A stretch of 46,244 bases of DNA from an uncultured Lachnospiraceae bacterium. GTDB lineage: Bacteria; Bacillota; Clostridia; Lachnospirales; Lachnospiraceae. The first letter of the stretch is position 1. Each line of letters begins with the position of its first letter. Shown here piece after piece: positions 2,807 to 15,059 of the stretch. Below the pieces are notes generated by a model. The model had not been told where the DNA came from. It made no database searches and saw nothing but the letters and a program-made list of their open reading frames with translations. A program made the position numbers and the translations under genes. The stretch lies in contig CADBIU010000015.1 in NCBI GenBank assembly GCA_902794825.1, positions 1 to 46,244 of the forward strand, given 5' to 3'.

Positions 2807-4138
2807 TCAGATCTCAAACTCCGCGTAATTCTTCTCCGTCTTGTCAGAAACCGCTTCCGACTTCGCGTAAGTGAATCCGTCAGACTGCATCAGTTCTTCG
2901 ATTCCCATGTCCGGATTCTGGTACAGGATATCCAGAAGCTCAATGAAGTCCCGGATAACCTCTCTGGGCGTGATATTCTGGTCCGCGCCGATCCGTCCGT
3001 ACTCCAGTTTGATAAAGGGAATGATATCCTGTGTAGTGAGCGTTCTCTGATACCCGTAGAGGTCGGCGTGAATATCCGCCAGTTTCTCGCACAGGACCAG
3101 CATTTCCTCCGCGGTGAGCGGCTCCAGCCTTATGACCGGTGCCAGAAGATCCCTTGCGCCCGGTCTTGAGAACTTACCCTCCGCGAGGCGGGATCGAAGC
3201 GCTTCATAACTGTAGATTCCCCGGCGCTTGTCCTCCAGCGCCTGAGGAGTAGCGCCCATAATGATCCCAAGATAGCGCGCCTTCCCCTGAAGTGTGTCGT
3301 TGTACATGGTCAGTATCTTCTCATAATTGTACTGGCGTGTAATACTGTTCGGGATCTTGTAGATGTTGACCAGCTCATCGATCATGATCATCAAGCCGGT
3401 ATAGCCCGCAAGGCGGAAAAATGTCGCGAACAGTTTCAGATAGTCGTACCAGTCGTCATCTGTGATGATGATATTGACTCCCAGCTCTTCTTTGGCTTCC
3501 CGTTTGAGGGCGTATTCTCCCCTGAACCATCGGACTACTTTCATTTTCCTGTCGTCGTCGCCTTCCACATAGGCGTGATAATAGATGGACAGGAGCCGCG
3601 CAAACTCAAAACCGTGCACGAGCTCGCTGACCGCCGAAGTGACCGTGTAGATCTTCTGATCCACTGCCTTCGTCAGCATCGGATCACCGGGCATAAGCCC
3701 CGTCTCCTGCGCCGCCTCCATCTGTACGTTATTGATCCAGCGATCCAGCACAAGCGTCAGGGCGCCTCCCTCAGGCCTGGTCTTCGTAGAGAGATTTCCG
3801 ATCAGTTCCCTGTAAGTGGCAAGCCCCTGCCCTTTCGTTCCCTGCAGTCTCCGCTCCGGCGACAGATCCGCGTCCGCGACGATAAATCCCCTGTCCATAA
3901 CATAATTTCTGATCGTCTGAATCAGGAAGCTCTTGCCGGATCCATATCTGCCGACAATAAAGCGAAACGACGCGCCGCCCTCCCCGATGATATCAACATC
4001 GTGTAGCAGCGCCTCGATCTCGCTCTTTCTTCCCACTGTTATATAGGGCAGGCCGATCCGCGGAACCACGCCGCCCTTCAGTGATCCGATCACAGTCTGC
4101 GCGATCCGCTTCGGCACCTTCTTCTTTCTATCTGTCAT
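2807..4138 (-). CDS. sngB: DUF2791/BrxD-type P-loop ATPase, SngB of a Shango-like operon
   Basis: A 443-residue ATPase. The preferred start is ATG 4136-4138, seven bases after an AAGGAG site; a TTG just upstream is less likely. Walker A GRYGSGKS is at about 63-70, preceded by the typical N-terminus with VGRKSEIEALLHDVD. Walker B MIMIDELVNIY is at about 250. The layout and length match the BREX BrxD/DUF2791 family of ATP-binding proteins, which in several defence loci pair with an Lhr-type helicase. It lies 48 bases before the helicase gene and 21 bases after the TerB gene, so the three are probably co-transcribed. In Shango the ATPase is required for phage protection; here that function is inferred. 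No catalytic motif is missing. Confidence 0.87.
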   Translation of the reverse strand: MTDRKKKVPKRIAQTVIGSLKGGVVPRIGLPYITVGRKSEIEALLHDVDIIGEGGASFRFIVGRYGSGKSFLIQTIRNYVMDRGFIVADADLSPERRLQGTKGQGLATYRELIGNLSTKTRPEGGALTLVLDRWINNVQMEAAQETGLMPGDPMLTKAVDQKIYTVTSAVSELVHGFEFARLLSIYYHAYVEGDDDRKMKVVRWFRGEYALKREAKEELGVNIIITDDDWYDYLKLFATFFRLAGYTGLMIMIDELVNIYKIPNSITRQYNYEKILTMYNDTLQGKARYLGIIMGATPQALEDKRRGIYSYEALRSRLAEGKFSRPGARDLLAPVIRLEPLTAEEMLVLCEKLADIHADLYGYQRTLTTQDIIPFIKLEYGRIGADQNITPREVIRDFIELLDILYQNPDMGIEELMQSDGFTYAKSEAVSDKTEKNYAEFEI

Positions 4139-4159
4139 CAACCTTCTCCTTCAAGTGTT

Positions 4160-6151
4160 CTATTCAAGTATTCTCTCCAGGTCTTCCCTGTAGTCCTCGA
4201 CCAGCATGATCTCATCCCCTTCGCAGGAGAGGACATTGTCTCCGATCTCATCGAAGAGCGCCTCATTGATCGCGTCCGCGACCACTGAGGGCATCAGCGC
4301 TTTCTGTCTGATCAGCCCCGCGACAGGCTCTCCGCGCATGACAGACAGAAGGATCTGCGTATATACATCATCCAGTTCGGGAATTTCTGTCGCAGCAGGT
4401 ATTTCCTCTACCATAGGGCCTTCCGATACTTCCAGGGTCACCGGCTGAACGAACTTCCGCTCCTTTTGCTGCGCGTCAGGACCCGCTGCCTGCTCTAATG
4501 CCTGCTCCGGCGCCTGCTCCCTCATCTCATCCTCCGTCAGAAGGCTGTCCCGGGTGATCTGCGCGTCCCGTCTTATCTTATCAAGCCCGGAGAGGTCGAT
4601 CGTGATCTTCGGCTTCGCCGCTTCTTCTGCCGCTGTCCTGTCCGCCCCGATCACCGCTTCCACATAGGGAGTGACCCACTCTTCGCCCTTTTTCTCCCTG
4701 AGGTAGTGCCCGGTCTTAAGATATCTGCGGATCTGCCTGTCCGCCTCATGTACGATCGCATGGACCCGGTATTTGTCAAAAAACAGTTCGTCATACCTGT
4801 ATTCAGACCACTCGCCGCTTTTATACACGAACTTCCGGCACTCCGTCACCTTGTACTCGGCATCTTCCCGATTTTCCGGATCCATATAGACCGCGTTTGC
4901 CAAAGGATGCCAGGGAAACTGACGCATCTTACCAAAACAGGCGTCAAAGATATCCCATCCGAGATCATCATAGTGCTCCGCCATATATCTCCATACTTCC
5001 GCGAACAGATGCATCCCCCTCTCCGGTTCCTTCATGATCGCGGAGGATTTCTCTGTTTTGCCTCCGGTCAAGGCGTTAAGGGCCCCGAATACCTCCTCAT
5101 CTGTATGCTCCAGAGGTTTGCGAAGTATCATAAGCTGTCGATCCCGCTCGATCAGTTCCGGGGCGATCAGGGACTTTACATCCTCCGATAAAGAACCGCT
5201 TAACACCGTAAATTCCATGATCCAGCGGTGCAGGTTCTCTCTCATGGACCTGTCCCCGAACCCGCTGTCCAGAAAGCCTTTCTCAAACTCTTTCATTTTC
5301 CGGATTGCTTCTTCAGGCGTATTCGCCCCGATCATATTCAGCAGTTCGTAGATATACATATACGCCAGAGATGTCGTGATCGGGCGAAACTCTCCTCTTC
5401 TGACCCTTGTCCTCCAGGCAAAATATCCCCTGAGCTGATTCAGGTTCAGATCGTGATAAGTGGCAAAATACCGCTTAACTTCACTGTTCCACGGCGCATC
5501 GTCCTCATAATCCTCCATGAATTTCCCCTGTCGGACGAAGTTCATGCACTTGTTCTCGAAAGAGCTGTTCCTGTACTCATAGAGCTGCATCATCTCGAGG
5601 ATGCGGGTCGGGATCGGACGGGGTTCATTATTCCGGAGGACATGCGTCTGCGGTCCGATCCTCCGCTTCTCTTCCTGCTTCTCACGAAAGCGGCTCTTAT
5701 CATAATTGCCGCGCATAGCTTCAAGCGGAAGCAATGTGTCTCTGAAAACTTTTCCGCCGGTACCCGGACTCTCCTCTTTTTTCTGCTCCTCCAACACGAC
5801 TGTATAACTGCCCGCTCTGCCGATCCGTATTGCCTCATCGAACAGTTTGAACACGACCTCCGGTTCCGTCCGGTCATCGAAGATGACTCCGGCCCACTTT
5901 TCTCCCCTCATCCTGAATGCGTTAGTCACGTAAGGCTCTTTGATTTCTGTCAGGATCTGCCTTCCGCACTTGATATCACATCTGCAGAGCTCGTTTCCTG
6001 TCTCATAGTCCCACTGGCGCATCATAAGAGCGACCCACTTCCTTGTCTCCGGATCGGTCAGAACCGAGAAACTGCGGAAATCATCCCACTTCTGCTCCTC
6101 GCGGATATGATATTTTTTTTCGGCGTAGGCCGTAAGCTCTGACAGGTCCAA
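4160..6151 (-). CDS. sngA: TerB-N/TerB-C domain protein, SngA of a Shango-like operon
   Basis: The likely start is TTG 6149-6151, with GGAGG six bases before it, giving 663 residues. A longer frame from GTG 6202 would begin inside the predicted promoter and adds an implausible leader. The centre, roughly residues 150-380, has TerB-N-like sequence (PTRILEMMQLYEYRNSSFE, then FATYHDLNLNQLRGYFAWRT and RRGEF). The C-terminal 80 residues have the acidic, helical look of a TerB-C domain (DDVYTQILLSVMRGEPVAG). TerB-type domains come from tellurite-resistance and stress systems and are thought to act as metal- or ligand-sensing scaffolds. It is the first gene of the Shango-like operon. No nuclease motif was found, so the effector activity is unknown. 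Confidence 0.82.
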   Translation of the reverse strand: MDLSELTAYAEKKYHIREEQKWDDFRSFSVLTDPETRKWVALMMRQWDYETGNELCRCDIKCGRQILTEIKEPYVTNAFRMRGEKWAGVIFDDRTEPEVVFKLFDEAIRIGRAGSYTVVLEEQKKEESPGTGGKVFRDTLLPLEAMRGNYDKSRFREKQEEKRRIGPQTHVLRNNEPRPIPTRILEMMQLYEYRNSSFENKCMNFVRQGKFMEDYEDDAPWNSEVKRYFATYHDLNLNQLRGYFAWRTRVRRGEFRPITTSLAYMYIYELLNMIGANTPEEAIRKMKEFEKGFLDSGFGDRSMRENLHRWIMEFTVLSGSLSEDVKSLIAPELIERDRQLMILRKPLEHTDEEVFGALNALTGGKTEKSSAIMKEPERGMHLFAEVWRYMAEHYDDLGWDIFDACFGKMRQFPWHPLANAVYMDPENREDAEYKVTECRKFVYKSGEWSEYRYDELFFDKYRVHAIVHEADRQIRRYLKTGHYLREKKGEEWVTPYVEAVIGADRTAAEEAAKPKITIDLSGLDKIRRDAQITRDSLLTEDEMREQAPEQALEQAAGPDAQQKERKFVQPVTLEVSEGPMVEEIPAATEIPELDDVYTQILLSVMRGEPVAGLIRQKALMPSVVADAINEALFDEIGDNVLSCEGDEIMLVEDYREDLERILE

Positions 6152-6192
6152 ATCATTCCTCCAACTGCCTGATCTGACAGTAACACAACATA

Positions 6193-6222
6193 AATATAGC
6201 ACATAGACCCTGTATCGAACAA
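6193..6222 (-). promoter_or_regulatory. Candidate promoter of the Shango-like operon
   Basis: On the minus strand TTGTTC (6217-6222) and TATATT (6193-6198) are separated by 18 bases. Transcription would begin near 6186, downstream of the GTG at 6202, which supports the TTG start at 6151. Confidence 0.5.
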
Positions 6223-8921: not shown

Positions 8922-8960
8922 AAAAACACCTCATCGGCTTTGAACCGATGAGGTGTTTTG
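8922..8960. terminator. Bidirectional terminator between the hydrolase and oppA
   Basis: AACACCTCATCGG pairs perfectly with CCGATGAGGTGTT around CTTTGAA, with A- and T-rich flanks on both sides. It serves two converging genes. Confidence 0.9.
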
Positions 8961-9026: not shown

Positions 9027-10802
9027 TTAGCGGCCGAACTGGCAGTCGTTGTTGCCGGAATCGCTTGTCCACATCTCAAGCATGTTGATGGGATCGTTGA
9101 AGTCTGCAAGCCAGCCTTCACGAGCGAAGTCGAAGTTGCCCTGTTTTCTCTCATCCAGGAATACGTTCCACTCACGCTTATCAATAGTCATGTTGATGCC
9201 GATCTCAGCGAAATCCTGCTGCATGATCTGAGCAACACCGATGTGGCCTGTGCCATCGTTGGTCAGGTATGTGATGTTCAGAGGAGTCTCAGCGGAAAGC
9301 TTGCCATCCTCAAATTTGAAGCCCGCATACTCGAGAAGCGCGATCGCCTCGTCGATAGCCGCATCCTGAACTTCCTCAGGATAGTAGCCGTCGCCTACAG
9401 GGAATTTATAAGCGCCGTTCTCTTTGAATGTGCCGCCGTTGCCGTCAGCCATTCCTGCAGGGATGTAGGAAGTTGCAACCTTCTGGCCTGTCTGGCCGAC
9501 TGTCTCTACAATGTAAGGACGGTCGATGAGGATCGCGAAAGCCTTTCTCATAGCGATAGCCTGGTCAACAGTCTTGCCTTCGAAGATAGGGCTGTTTACG
9601 TTGAACGCCGCATAGTAGGTTCCCAGGTTGTCGATAACGTGGAAATCAGGGTTGTCCATGATAGAAGCGATCTCGTTTGTGGGAACTGTGTCAGCGAAGT
9701 CAAGGTCGCCGGAGTTGTAAGCTGAGAAAATTGCTGTGTCATCAGCAGAGAGCATCAGGTCGATCTCAGGGATGGTAACTTCATCAGCTCTCCAGTAATT
9801 GTCGTTCTTGGTCAGGACCATGGACTCTTCGTGTTTCCATGAAGTCATGGTGTAAGCGCCGTTGGTTACGAAACCGGCTTCTGCTGCCCATGCGCCGGGG
9901 TTGGTCTCCCATCCTGCCGCTGCCTCAACCTGTGCCTGGGGAACAGGAAGGTATGCAGGGAATGCTGCGAGGTCAAGGAAGTATGCGCAAGGAGCTACCA
10001 GCTTAACTGTGAGGGTCTTGCCGTCTTCAGATGCGACAACATCAAGAGCGCCGTCAGCGTTCTTTGCGATCGCGTCGAACATGTATCCGTAGTCAGCTGC
10101 TGTCTCGGGAGCTGCTGCTCTCTTCCATGCATACTCGAAATCCTTGGCGGTCAGGTCTGTGCCGTCGGACCACTTGAGGCCGTCACGAAGTGTGAAGGTA
10201 TAGGTCATGCCGTCTTCAGAGATCTCAGTGTTCTCAGCCAGCGCGGGCTGAAGGTTTCCGTCCTTGTCATAGGTGTAGAGGCCTTCAAACATGTTGACTG
10301 CGAGGCAGGCGCCGTCAACGGAAGAGTTCAGGGCGGGGTCAACCTTTGCGGGCTCGGAAGCCAGGTTGATCTTCAGAACGTCTCTGGGGCAGGTTGCGAA
10401 CTGGAAGAACTTGAATCCAAACAGGTTGGAATAGATGCCTTCCACGTCTGTCTTCTGCAGATACAGATCGTTGTAATAGTAGATCGGGATAACCGCTGCT
10501 GTGCCCATCAGGATATCTTCTGCCTTATGCATCAGAGCTACACGGTTCTCCATATCTGTTGTGGTCTTGATCTCGGTGATCAGAGCTTCGTACTCAGACC
10601 AGTCGGGAGCGGACTTACCCTCAGCGATCGCCTTGTAGGTAACGCCTTCAGGAGTGGGATAAATGGTGGATTCACCAGTTGCCTCCCCGGCCGCTTCCTG
10701 TGTCTGTGTTGATGTAGATGCGCCGGTGCTTCCGCCGCAGGCAGTCAGCAGAGACAGAGCGGTAACAACAGAAAGTACGAGTGCTAATGCGCGTTTTTTC
10801 AT
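9027..10802 (-). CDS. oppA: Oligopeptide-binding lipoprotein OppA, segmentally permuted
   Basis: A 591-residue lipoprotein (signal peptide 1-21, lipid-carrying Cys22 in LLTACGG) of SBP family 5, expected to capture peptides for the oppBCDF transporter. The order of segments is abnormal. Residues about 64-137 (DWSEYEALITEIKTTTD, then MHKAEDILM, VIPIYYYNDLYLQ and FGFKFFQFAT) are what such proteins carry at their C-terminus. The normal mature N-terminus begins only at about 141 (VLKINLASEPAKVDPALN), followed by GLKWSDG and KDFEYAWKR. The protein then stops just after LEMWTSDSGNNDCQFGR, exactly where the missing tail would begin. Each segment occurs once, so the fold may be complete. It is preceded by AGGAGG and by its own leader hairpin and promoter-like sequence. 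Confidence 0.88.
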   Translation of the reverse strand: MKKRALALVLSVVTALSLLTACGGSTGASTSTQTQEAAGEATGESTIYPTPEGVTYKAIAEGKSAPDWSEYEALITEIKTTTDMENRVALMHKAEDILMGTAAVIPIYYYNDLYLQKTDVEGIYSNLFGFKFFQFATCPRDVLKINLASEPAKVDPALNSSVDGACLAVNMFEGLYTYDKDGNLQPALAENTEISEDGMTYTFTLRDGLKWSDGTDLTAKDFEYAWKRAAAPETAADYGYMFDAIAKNADGALDVVASEDGKTLTVKLVAPCAYFLDLAAFPAYLPVPQAQVEAAAGWETNPGAWAAEAGFVTNGAYTMTSWKHEESMVLTKNDNYWRADEVTIPEIDLMLSADDTAIFSAYNSGDLDFADTVPTNEIASIMDNPDFHVIDNLGTYYAAFNVNSPIFEGKTVDQAIAMRKAFAILIDRPYIVETVGQTGQKVATSYIPAGMADGNGGTFKENGAYKFPVGDGYYPEEVQDAAIDEAIALLEYAGFKFEDGKLSAETPLNITYLTNDGTGHIGVAQIMQQDFAEIGINMTIDKREWNVFLDERKQGNFDFAREGWLADFNDPINMLEMWTSDSGNNDCQFGR

Positions 10803-11015: not shown

Positions 11016-11978
11016 TTACTTATTCCAGCACGCGACCATGTGGCCGTTTCCTCTGTCTGTCAGCGACGGACACTCCTGCGCGCACTTTTCTGTCGCGAAA
11101 CGGCACCTGGTCCGGAAAGCGCATCCGGAAGGCATACGGAGCGGACTGGGAACATCTCCCTCGAGTATGATCCTCTTGGAGCTCTTCGCGATATTGGGAT
11201 CCGGGATCGGAACCGCGGAGAGCAGGGACTGTGTATAAGGGTGGATAGGGCTGTCATAGAGTTCATCCGCGTCAGCTGTCTCCACAACTCTTCCCAGATA
11301 CATGACCGCGATTCGGTCGGAAATATGCCTGACGACCAGAAGGTCGTGCGCGATAAAGAGGTACGCGACGCCCAGTTTCTCCTGAAGTTCTTCAAACATG
11401 TTGATGACCTGAGCCTGGATAGAAACGTCCAGCGCGGATACAGCCTCGTCGCAGACGATAAATCTGGGATCCACGGCCAGCGCTCTGGCGATACCGATAC
11501 GCTGTCTCTGTCCGCCGGAGAACTCGTGTACATATCTTGTGGCGTGCTCCGCGTTAAGTCCGACCAGCTCCATAAGACCCAGGATCTTCTCTCTTCTTTC
11601 CTTGCTGTTTGAGTAGAGTTTATGGACATCGAGGGGCTCGCCGATGATCTCTTCGACCGTCATGCGGGGGTCCAGGGAGGAATAGGGATCCTGGAAGACC
11701 ATCTGCATCTTGGGGCGGTACTTGATCATGTTCTGGTCGGTGATCAGTTCTCCGTCGTAATAGATCTCGCCGCCGGTGGGCTTATAGAGACGCAGCAGCG
11801 TACGGCCGACTGTCGTCTTGCCGCAGCCGGACTCTCCTACAAGTCCGAGAGTCTCACCGGGCTTTATGCCGAAGTTGACGCCGTCAACCGCCTTGAGGAG
11901 CGTTGTCTTCATAAAGCCGGTGCGAATAGGAAAATACTGTTTCAGGTCTTTTACTTCAACTAAGTATTCGCTGCTCAT
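11016..11978 (-). CDS. oppF: Oligopeptide ABC transporter ATPase OppF
   Basis: A 320-residue ABC ATPase: Walker [10 protein letters not shown] near residue 50, signature [16 protein letters not shown] near 150, Walker [13 protein letters not shown], and the switch histidine in FIAHDL. The C-terminal OppD/F-type extension is cysteine-bearing ([14 protein letters not shown]), probably the iron-sulfur or zinc motif typical of this family. It forms the nucleotide-binding heterodimer with OppD on the inner face of the membrane. Its start overlaps the end of oppD by four bases, implying translational coupling. Confidence 0.93.
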
Positions 11979-13003
11979 GCTTTCACCTCCGCTTCCTCAT
12001 CATGAAGATATTTGTTATCCCTTATATTGATCCAACAGGAAGCCAGATGTGTCTTATCGATCCTGACCTCCTCGGGAACCTGTGTCAGGCAGATCTTCAT
12101 GGCGTTGTCGCATCTTGCGCAGAACGCGCATCCCTTGGGCATGTTCAGAAGATTGATGGGCGTACCCGCAATGGGAATCAGCTTTTTCTTCATATTGCTT
12201 ACGGACGGGATGGAACGCAGAAGTCCTTTCGTGTACTCATGGCAGGGATTGTAGAAAATATCCTCTGCCGTTCCGCGCTCACAGATTCTTCCGCCGTACA
12301 TAACGACGATCTCATCAGACATCTGCGCGATGACGCCCAGATCGTGAGTTACGATGATGATCGCCATACCCAGCTTTTTCTGCAGTTCCATCATCAGCTC
12401 CAGGATCTGCGCCTGAATGGTAACATCCAGAGCTGTGGTGGGCTCATCGGCGATGAGGATCGAAGGCTCGGATACCAGCGCCATAGCGATCATGACACGC
12501 TGGCGCATACCGCCTGAGAGCTCATGGGGATACTGCTTGAGGCGGCGGGGCGCATCGTTAATACCTACCAGTTCCAGCATCTCCTGTGCTTTCTTTCTGG
12601 CCTCTTCTTTGCTCACCTTGTTGTGTGTGGTGATAGCTTCCATGATCTGGTTTCCCACCGTGTAGACGGGATTGAGGGAGGTCATGGGATCCTGGAAGAT
12701 CATAGCGCAGTGTCTTCCGCGAAAGTCCTCCATCTGCTTGGGAGTATATTTGGTGATATCCTCGCCCTTGAACAATACCTTGCCCTGTGTGATATGGCCG
12801 TTTCCGTCCAGGATCTGCATGATGGAATAGGCCGAGACCGATTTGCCGGAACCGGATTCGCCTACGATTCCCAGGCTCTTTCCTTCCTCCAGCGTATATG
12901 TAACACCGTTGACTGCCTTGACTTCTCCCTTATCGGTCTTGAAGGAAGTATGAAGGTCAATGACCTGCAGAAGCGGCGTGTGCTTTTCTGTATTCTGACT
13001 CAT
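11975..13003 (-). CDS. oppD: Oligopeptide ABC transporter ATPase OppD
   Basis: A 342-residue ABC ATPase with Walker A GESGSGKS near residue 50, signature [16 protein letters not shown] near 160, Walker [14 protein letters not shown], and the H-loop IVTHDLG. The C-terminus has the family extension with cysteines ([14 protein letters not shown]). It pairs with OppF to drive peptide import. oppC ends 70 bases upstream, and oppF begins within its stop codon, so it is an internal member of the opp operon. Confidence 0.93.
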
Positions 13004-13073: not shown

Positions 13074-14132
13074 TTATTTGCTTCTGAGCTTGGGATCGAA
13101 CGCGTCGCGCAGGCCGTCGCCGAGAAGGTTGAAGGCCAGGACGATCAGGACGATCAGGACCGCAGGGTAGACCAGCTGCATGGGATAAGTCTGCAGGCCC
13201 TCACGTGCGGAGTTCGCAAGAGAGCCCAGGGATGGCATGGGATCGTTAACGCCCATACCGATAAATGACAGAAAGCTCTCCGTGAAGATCGCGGAAGGGA
13301 TCTGCAGGGCTGTTGTAATGATGATGACCGAAATACAGTTGGGAATAATGTGCTTGCGGATGATATGGGCGGGCTTTGCTCCGATCGATCTGGCCGCAAG
13401 GATGTACTCATTATTCTTGATCGTAAGGATCTGGCCTCTGACAAGTCTGGCCATGCCGACCCAATACAGCAGTCCGAATACGATGAAAATACAGATCATA
13501 TTGGTGCCGAGCGCGTTTACGATCGGGTTGTTGGTATTTTCCAGGATCGGCTGCAGGACAGTTGCCAGCAGAATGATGATCAGCATGTCCGGCAGCGAAT
13601 ATATGATATCGACGATACGCATCATGATCAGATCCGTTCGCCCTCCTGTATACCCTGCTATTGACCCGTATATGACGCCGATGATCAGGACCAGGATACT
13701 GGCAAAGAGACCGACGGTCAGGGAGATCCTCGCGCCGTAGACCACACGGATAAAGTAGTCGCGTCCCAGAGAGTCCGTTCCCAGGATATGCGGGAATACC
13801 TTTCCGCCTTCCTCCATGTATTTCTGTTCCATTTCCGAATATTCGAACGCCGCGAGGTTCTTGTTGGATCTGTCACGTCTTCCGTTAACCTTGATGATCT
13901 CCGAATAAGAATAAGGAACGACCAAAGGAGCGAAAGTGATCGTGATGATGATGAGCACAAGGACAATAATAGATCCCACTGCCAGCGGGTTCTTCATGAG
14001 TTTTCTCATACCATCCTTAAAAAAGGTGGTAGATTCGCTCATGACATCCGCCTGCCGCTTTTCATCCTCTGTAGCGGCTTCAAACAGGGCGGGATCGATC
14101 TGCATGCTTAAAGGATTTTTCTTTGCTTCCAT
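13074..14132 (-). CDS. oppC: Oligopeptide ABC transporter permease OppC
   Basis: A 352-residue permease. A cytosolic N-terminus of about 45 residues is followed by a first membrane segment (VGSIIVLVLIIITITF), an external loop with LGTDSLGRDYFIRVVYGAR, and about five further helices. The EAA coupling loop is EYILAARSIGA. The LGTDxxGRD motif is diagnostic for OppC/DppC. With OppB it forms the membrane channel. The gene begins 15 bases after oppB. Confidence 0.94.
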   Translation of the reverse strand: MEAKKNPLSMQIDPALFEAATEDEKRQADVMSESTTFFKDGMRKLMKNPLAVGSIIVLVLIIITITFAPLVVPYSYSEIIKVNGRRDRSNKNLAAFEYSEMEQKYMEEGGKVFPHILGTDSLGRDYFIRVVYGARISLTVGLFASILVLIIGVIYGSIAGYTGGRTDLIMMRIVDIIYSLPDMLIIILLATVLQPILENTNNPIVNALGTNMICIFIVFGLLYWVGMARLVRGQILTIKNNEYILAARSIGAKPAHIIRKHIIPNCISVIIITTALQIPSAIFTESFLSFIGMGVNDPMPSLGSLANSAREGLQTYPMQLVYPAVLIVLIVLAFNLLGDGLRDAFDPKLRSK

Positions 14133-14147
14133 ACTTACCTGCCCTCC

Positions 14148-15059
14148 TTAGTCCAAAGTGATCCTGGGATCGACAACCTTGTAAGCGATATCGCTGAGCA
14201 GGTTGCAGATGACCATTACTACTGCCAGGAAGATGGTAGTTGCCATGATCATGGGATAGTCACGGTTATTAATGGATTTTACGAACTGCTGGCCGAGACC
14301 TCCGATCGTAAAGATATTCTCGACGACCAGGGAACCTGTCAAAATATAGGCGAGCATAGGTCCCACATATGTGATGACGGGGATCAGCGCGTTCCTGAGC
14401 GCGTGCTTAAAGATGACCTTGACCATCGGAACGCCCTTGGCCCGCGCGGTGCGGATATAGTCCTGACCAAGTGAGTCGAGCATGGACGTCTTGGTAAGAC
14501 GCGTGACATAAGCCGTCGGATATGCCGCCAGCGCTATGACCGGCAGGATCAGAGACTTACTCGACGCATCCCAGACCGGAAGCAATTGCAGCTTGATGCA
14601 GAATACCAGCATCAGGAATGTCGCGAACACGAAGGAAGGCATTGCCGTAAACAGCGTTGTGAAGAAGACGATGATACGGTCGATCGGCCCGTTCCTGAAC
14701 AGGGCCGCCATTGAACCCAGTATAATGCCGGCGAAAACTGCCAGTACAGCTGCGGTAAGGCCCAGACGCCCGGACACCTTGAAACAGGAAAGCAGTGTAT
14801 CCTTAATATCGCGGCCGGTCTTAAGCGATACGCCGAAATCTCCATGCATGAGATTCTTCAGATACAGGGCAAACTGCACCGGGACAGGCTTGTCCAGGTT
14901 GTAGCGCTGCTCCAGAACCTGCTTTGTTGCTTCTGAAAGTGCCTTTTCTGAGTTGAAGGGTCCTCCGGGAATCGCATTCATGGCAAAGAATGTGATCGCG
15001 CAGATTATAAATACACTAACGATCGCCAGAAGGACTCTTTTTACAATGTACCGAGTCAT
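14148..15059 (-). CDS. oppB: Oligopeptide ABC transporter permease OppB
   Basis: A 303-residue permease with the typical first helix (RVLLAIVSVFIICAITFF), the PGGPF loop, about six membrane helices and the EAA loop QDYIRTARAKGV. It is the first gene of the opp operon (oppB-oppC-oppD-oppF-oppA). The leader contains a good sigma-A promoter and a 14-bp palindrome. The family imports oligopeptides, or nickel and other small ligands; peptide specificity is inferred from the OppA type. Confidence 0.94.
   Translation of the reverse strand: MTRYIVKRVLLAIVSVFIICAITFFAMNAIPGGPFNSEKALSEATKQVLEQRYNLDKPVPVQFALYLKNLMHGDFGVSLKTGRDIKDTLLSCFKVSGRLGLTAAVLAVFAGIILGSMAALFRNGPIDRIIVFFTTLFTAMPSFVFATFLMLVFCIKLQLLPVWDASSKSLILPVIALAAYPTAYVTRLTKTSMLDSLGQDYIRTARAKGVPMVKVIFKHALRNALIPVITYVGPMLAYILTGSLVVENIFTIGGLGQQFVKSINNRDYPMIMATTIFLAVVMVICNLLSDIAYKVVDPRITLD

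Follow-up and report, generated by a model that had tools for sequence, protein, structure and literature searches.

To our knowledge, most of the natural circular permutations described so far separate distantly related pairs of proteins. The textbook examples, the DNA methyltransferases and saposin/swaposin, illustrate permutation by duplication, a route of tandem duplication, fusion and trimming for which duplicated intermediates are predicted (PMC3320104, in the parts consulted). Among binding proteins, Tp0684 (MglB-2) of T. pallidum is a natural circular permutation of a tethered protein, designated 'Type Ic / Cluster Bc'. In the consulted parts of that report, Cluster Bc relatives occur in Gram-positive, often gut, bacteria, binding and closure are kept, and the authors guess that tethering favoured the permutation (PMC4990184). 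Among the papers listed in searches of the open literature we found no permuted OppA, none bringing circular permutation together with oligopeptide and OppA, and nothing on reversible permutation in such binding proteins. An earlier note on this DNA, which a model had made from the sequence alone, held that natural permutation in this family is undescribed; this stands for the OppA family among the open-literature papers listed, but not for substrate-binding proteins (SBPs) at large, since another SBP type is permuted (PMC4990184, as far as consulted). With permuted SBPs already known, the unusual part of the present case is its recurrence within one operon slot.

The window, meaning the whole stretch of DNA that was analysed, comprises 46,244 nucleotides from an uncultured Lachnospiraceae bacterium (assembly GCA_902794825.1, contig CADBIU010000015.1). 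It carries an open reading frame of 591 amino acids on the minus strand (9027..10802, stop included) that starts with ATG, has AGGAGG upstream, and encodes a lipobox, LTAC (Cys22). We consider it highly probable that its product, a peptide-binding lipoprotein of SBP family 5 (Cluster C), serves the OppBCDF importer encoded next to it and has a permuted chain (signal peptide, tether, old C-terminal segment, joint, old N-terminus, body), with the usual fold and function, and that chain order in its family has changed at least three times. The features are as follows.

8925..8957, no strand assigned: perfect hairpin of 13 bp, followed by T-rich sequence (read in the sequence; absent from the list of a simple scan)
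9027..10802, minus strand: permuted oppA gene (open frame with ribosome-binding site and lipobox; Pfam SBP_bac_5 match)
10737..10802, minus strand: lipoprotein signal peptide, residues 1–22, lipobox LTAC (read from the translation)
10614..10736, minus strand: tether, residues 23–63, low-complexity and then ...IYPTPEGVTYKAIAEGK (from the translation; front linkers of relatives are akin and end ...YNEAAPDW)
10392..10613, minus strand: moved C-terminal segment, residues 64–137, two helices and a long strand (alignment to OppA 8are 455–520 and DppE 8ay0 451–514)
10383..10391, minus strand: new joint CPR, residues 138–140, from old C-terminus to old mature N-terminus (junction table)
9030..10382, minus strand: body, residues 141–591, last residues QFGR (alignment to OppA 8are 20–450)
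11016..11978, minus strand: oppF ATPase (ABC_tran and oligo_HPY; its tree repeats the mixing of orders)
11975..13003, minus strand: oppD ATPase (ABC_tran and oligo_HPY)
13074..14132, minus strand: oppC permease (BPD_transp_1, OppC_N)
14148..15059, minus strand: oppB permease (BPD_transp_1 and the N-terminal domain of BPD_transp_1)

The hairpin lies between converging genes and is a probable two-way terminator. Elsewhere in the window, two genes on the minus strand at 2807–6202 match PADLOC SngB (631 bits) and SngA (222.7 bits), which we take to represent the Shango defence system; a 742-residue open reading frame at 530–2758 may be a candidate third gene beside them.

At the level of sequence comparison, the window protein was confirmed as a circularly permuted chain of the OppA/DppE type. 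When the PDB was searched with phmmer, OppA 8are matched in two stretches (query residues 141–587 with chain residues 20–450, and 69–134 with 455–520, the latter at an i-Evalue of 1.6e-4), as did DppE 8ay0 (137–583 with 18–442, and 69–132 with 451–514; 1.4e-9). A profile of 30 permuted proteins improved the second 8are stretch to 8.4e-9, and none of the best 60 of its 113 PDB matches was a chain whose best stretch crossed the joint. The separate alignments of body and moved segment that the earlier note had proposed are non-collinear, pairwise for 8are and 8ay0 alike and by profile for 8are; a collinear profile alignment, which it had named as counterevidence, is absent. It had placed the moved segment at residues 64–137: the end at FQFAT is where it was claimed to be, while the start is better set at about residue 67, with CPR (138–140) as the joint. 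Its further observations hold up as well, in that each segment is present once and the protein stops after SGNNDCQFGR, where the moved segment would come and where canonical L116 goes on ...QLGK-GSSSAAPDWKAYDEKI.... This order differs from that of solved members of SBP family 5, in which the body is followed by the C-terminal segment.

The sole Pfam domain matched in the window protein is SBP_bac_5 (PF00496), at residues 184–585 (profile positions 2–367 of 368; 264.7 bits against a cut-off of 32.4), a call that looks ordinary because the Pfam model lacks the C-terminal segment; in canonical L150 the same domain lies at residues 90–488 of 574 (profile 5–367). Within the motif WLADFNDP, residues W564, D567, D570 and P571 are invariant in all 30 permuted rows, and the Asp of this motif presumably contacts the amino end of the peptide.

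The structure predicted by AlphaFold (AF2, with the 30 permuted proteins as input alignment) was well formed, with a pLDDT of 85.7 and a pTM of 0.82, and the moved segment scored 87–94 in ten-residue blocks. Its elements (H69–80, H84–100 and E104–116) match those of the canonical L150 model (H504–515, H519–535 and E539–551; overall pLDDT 87.0) in order and length. Foldseek respects chain order and its totals are given here as columns: the permuted model aligned with OppA 8are over 470 columns (TM by target 0.72), approximately the length of the body, and the L150 model over 554 (0.88), while across six B. subtilis OppA/DppE chains the permuted model gave 462–470 columns (TM 0.72–0.74) and the canonical one 538–554 (0.82–0.91). 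Such a deficit should be expected of a permuted chain with an unchanged fold. Judged by title, the 50 structure matches listed bind peptides, nickel, glutathione or opines and belong to the Cluster C type. The models suggest that the moved segment occupies its old place in the OppA fold, and the usual two-lobed fold appears likely because the old ends are close enough for a joint of a few residues and because even canonical relatives have an extended loop at the cut point.

The neighbouring oppBCDF genes are intact, as judged from the Pfam domains of all four products, and the permuted gene encodes the only binding protein of this operon, both in agreement with the earlier note. The genome has at least one further family-5-like binding protein (L002), which lies on a different contig and is 36% identical over residues 162–264. 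In the named-genome scan, oppF was the nearest opp gene upstream of 81 of 83 permuted genes, and the exact order oppB-C-D-F was in view at 59 of those 81 (opp genes alone were scored). The close canonical loci share this arrangement: 16 of 17 lie behind oppD-oppF, with L151 having no opp gene in its stretch, and canonical L116–L121 have bodies 52–62% identical to that of the window protein. A cognate importer of the OppBCDF type adjoins the permuted gene, and an ordinary job is to be expected of its product, namely peptide capture and delivery to OppBCDF. A permuted OppA would still close on peptides and dock on OppBC.

The permuted order is shared by close relatives, as the earlier note had suggested looking for. 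A scan of named genomes of bacteria and archaea, which favours relatives of the query and is no census, confirmed 474 relatives, and all 80 loci kept as the best of these carry the permuted order. Among the permuted records not labelled as metagenome bins are Eisenbergiella porci, Eisenbergiella tayi, Proteiniclasticum aestuarii and Lachnospiraceae bacterium COE1, as well as Murimonas intestini (whose record bears a contamination flag), and the order is also found in Lachnospiraceae bacterium CE91-St56, for which the genome is complete. When ten genomes from the named records were searched as a whole, the four isolate or complete ones each gave a single match (E<=1e-60), the permuted copy. Within the window's own genus the permuted gene is present in 17 of 37 genomes (the G016 copy being split over two frames), and in a sample of its family an orthologue was detected at E<=1e-150 in 38 of 397 genomes. 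The match to a canonical query ran over its full or almost full length in 12 of these 38 and over the body alone in the other 26; 24 of the latter were read as permuted, and G579 and G949 were classed from match range alone. A sample of 299 genomes from the phylum (E<=1e-110) returned the window gene itself, one canonical match and nothing more, and genus searches for further relatives of G458 and G367 (1 and 2 genomes, respectively) found none. The fetched loci together hold 124 permuted and 52 canonical segments, counting halves of doubles separately and some genomes twice. The window gene is thus no isolated oddity but one member of a whole family of permuted proteins. Lachnospiraceae appear to be the main holders of this form, which is scattered elsewhere (Chloroflexota, Erysipelotrichaceae and Clostridiaceae, by record title). 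In the genomes of L076, L079 and L094 (G996, G995 and G997), the copy at the locus is accompanied by a second one, which aligns collinearly with the permuted query (69–72%), and by a binding protein that matches the body alone (38–40%).

Canonical-order orthologues occupy the same operon slot as permuted ones, and the two orders are mixed on the trees of two genes, OppA and OppF. In the first tree, built from 90 bodies, canonical L116, L118 and L121 fell among the permuted proteins and a single permuted clade was not rejected (AU p=0.48), a result that was reversed after more canonical relatives had been sampled and the columns of the moved segment added. A quick tree of 61 rows then had 3 forced order changes, a careful tree of 42 rows needed 5 changes, with well-supported branches forcing 4 of these, and a quick tree of 83 rows had 5 changes with 3 forced. 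On the 42-row set, a single change of order was seen in 0 of 200 bootstrap trees, and holding the permuted rows as one clade was rejected (AU p=0.001) at a dlnL of 198, where likelihood gaps are heuristic-search values. L170 was tried as an extra order change and dropped (p=0.60); the free search there overlooked a tree of slightly higher likelihood in which the clade was held together.

Two conflicts carry this result. Permuted L149 falls among canonical relatives, with its body and its moved segment each placing it there, and one clade was rejected without L146 and L150 (p=0.00017) and also when L170 was removed with them (p=0.0325). Canonical L146 and L150 fall among permuted proteins (p=0.0005 without L149 and L170; p=0.0044 when L015 was left out too). 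Of all bodies, that of permuted L015 comes nearest to canonical L150; the L015 body is 76–78% identical to those of L146 and L150 (78% for L150), in the same operon slot. When L149, L170, L146 and L150 were all removed, the permuted rows formed one side of a branch with support 22. L015, one of the deciding rows, was a manual addition made once its resemblance to L150 had been noticed, and the deciding lineages (L146, L150, L015 and L149) are draft genomes, three of them 81–83% complete.

The tree of OppF, whose own gene is free of the permutation, repeated these placements. It required 6 changes (3 forced), gave a single change in 0 of 200 bootstrap trees, placed L149 inside a canonical clade (100/100), and recovered ((L150, L015), L146) at 89/87 and 90/79. 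One clade was rejected (AU p=0.0006, and p=0.0004 without L146 and L150), with a borderline value when L149 was left out (p=0.056). From the two trees we infer, as a conservative count, that chain order changed at least three times, in every case at the one loop that the search for cut points covered.

In canonical proteins the loop at the cut reads ...NND.Q(F/L)GK, followed by 8–12 residues through the W of ..AP.W, and several of these loops resemble each other ([DN]P[ST]..AAP[DE]W). Five canonical proteins (L022, L027, L123, L127 and L128) have about 26 largely conserved residues inserted in it, before the W. Permuted proteins stop exactly at QxG[KR] in 103 of 120 cases, L149, L015 and L170 among them; their front linkers end ...YNEAAPDW in distant clades (L011, L044 and L065), and 1–7 residues separate the profile-defined segments at the joint. 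Duplicated forms were also found. L075 and L079 each encode a fused pair of permuted units, with about 1300 residues in a single frame, and the middle of such a double (N1-E1-linker-C2) is a canonical unit, so that both orders are held in one protein at once. These two are Chloroflexota genes, with units linked by some 80–90 Ala/Val/Glu-rich residues. L073 has two intact tandem genes in permuted order, and the intact gene of L103 is preceded by a decayed tandem copy (3900–4360), likewise permuted, that has a frameshift and has lost a large internal part. Leftover pieces of the old C-terminus were sought beside 163 genes: L108 has another, distant binding protein, and L055, L077 and L102 gave short weak matches. 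Downstream of the L110 gene, 38 residues (3488–3601) match the beginning of the body with 50% identity (E 3e-7), perhaps a remnant or a second copy.

Order changes most likely proceeded via tandem duplication, in-frame fusion and loss of outer pieces. In such a route, tandem duplication of oppA would be followed by in-frame fusion into a double, [C-N-E]-[C-N-E], holding both orders, and loss of its outer pieces would leave a single unit in the other order.

Several other explanations of these data were weighed. A misassembly or binning artefact that fused pieces of two tandem oppA copies would produce the observed order in a single contig, and the window contig does come from a genome in 127 contigs that is 84.6% complete, with tandem copies known in relatives L073 and L103. 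The same order is found, however, in separate assemblies, isolates and a complete genome among the 80 of 80 kept loci (the best 80 of 474), which excludes the misassembly that the earlier note had offered as its refutation; this explanation is already refuted for the family as a whole, no second copy lies beside the window gene within the fetched stretch (L001), and we regard it as having next to no chance of being correct even for this contig. The moved segment might alternatively be swapped between two molecules in a domain-swapped dimer, or lie outside the fold. Domain-swapped dimers do occur in the family, according to the title of 8qlh (AliC), but the single-chain model is confident, with the moved helices and strand formed, and a joint of merely 1–7 residues between profile-defined segments leaves us thinking either very unlikely.

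The mixing of orders could also be only apparent, with a single permutation after which permuted and canonical paralogues recombined or were transferred. Binding-protein genes are frequently duplicated and exchanged, and Chloroflexota have permuted members alongside others that match the body alone. Recombination within the gene or transfer of the gene by itself is nonetheless a poor explanation, because the neighbouring OppF yields the same placements and itself rejects one clade, and because body and moved segment concur in placing L149 with canonical relatives; the L150 body, likewise, is nearest to that of L015. Movement of whole operons would keep the operon tree intact and still require the order changes, and we judge transfer unlikely as the source of the mixing. 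More probable than these is a course in which the family was permuted once, at its base, and then reverted several times via fused tandem copies, with no second permutation. The shared QxG[KR] stop favours this course over repeated gains, and the similar front linkers of distant clades and the canonical unit inside the fused doubles point the same way; the likeness among canonical loops favours repeated gains and fits an unbroken canonical line, and one gain with reversions needs about six changes on the 42-row tree against five (our own count). We hold a single gain with reversions to be a real possibility, with a chance somewhat short of even.

With a flexible tether, the two orders may have almost the same fitness, leaving order free to drift. 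We give roughly even odds to the broader proposition that chain order is here a drifting, reversible character: that the same slot was switched several times within one bacterial family, at one pre-adapted loop and via fused tandem copies, and that the cut frees the N-terminus for very long tethers or for secreted, non-lipidated forms. The cut loop should belong to domain III of OppA, and the membrane tether would exit there rather than at domain I.

The tether of the window protein is about 40 residues long. Among proteins scoring above 620 bits, a simple lipobox pattern was found in 15 of 15 canonical ones, with tethers of 10–36 residues, and in 92 of 120 permuted proteins, for which the median tether was 51.5; the maximum of 772 and tails of 616–620 come from halves of fused doubles and are not true values. 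Of the 28 permuted proteins lacking the lipobox, some are cut by contig ends or are misses of the pattern (L045 and L161, for example) and several plainly have an ordinary signal peptide. The contrast in tether and lipobox is a lead, as the lineages are correlated and the motif test is crude. L087, L094, L102, L160, L172 and others are permuted proteins whose signal peptide looks ordinary and in which the pattern finds no lipobox, and in L087 and L102 the moved segment comes almost directly after the likely cleavage site. In L044 (an open reading frame of 1263 residues) some 660 Ala/Glu-rich residues resembling a long helical stalk precede the moved segment; L045 has an Ala/Glu-rich tether of several hundred residues in a frame that runs off its contig.

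Close orthologues with opposite orders make both the route of permutation and its effect on fitness directly testable. They also expose a blind spot of annotation, in that permuted and ordinary proteins get one label while the Pfam model omits the moved segment, and for studies of transport they provide natural variants whose membrane tether exits the binding protein at another place.

Compared with described systems, the window protein is closest to OppA and DppE of B. subtilis (8are and 8ay0), which are its best sequence matches and among its best structure matches and which share the OppBCDF-type operon partners and the lipoprotein signal; it differs from them in that its last ~70 residues come first and its tether exits at another loop. 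With Tp0684 it shares being a naturally permuted, tethered SBP (PMC4990184, as consulted). Tp0684 is, however, a Cluster B sugar-binding protein in which three N-terminal strands moved to the end, whereas the window protein is of Cluster C with a different cut (PMC4990184, same parts); a Cluster B sugar-binding fold was not found in it, SBP_bac_5 being its sole match and its structure matches being of the Cluster C type. Unlike the window family, Tp0684 has no mixing of orders among close orthologues reported in the consulted parts of PMC4990184. The methyltransferases and saposins are unrelated proteins for which the same route is predicted (PMC3320104, in the parts consulted), and in the family described here the duplicated forms are present.
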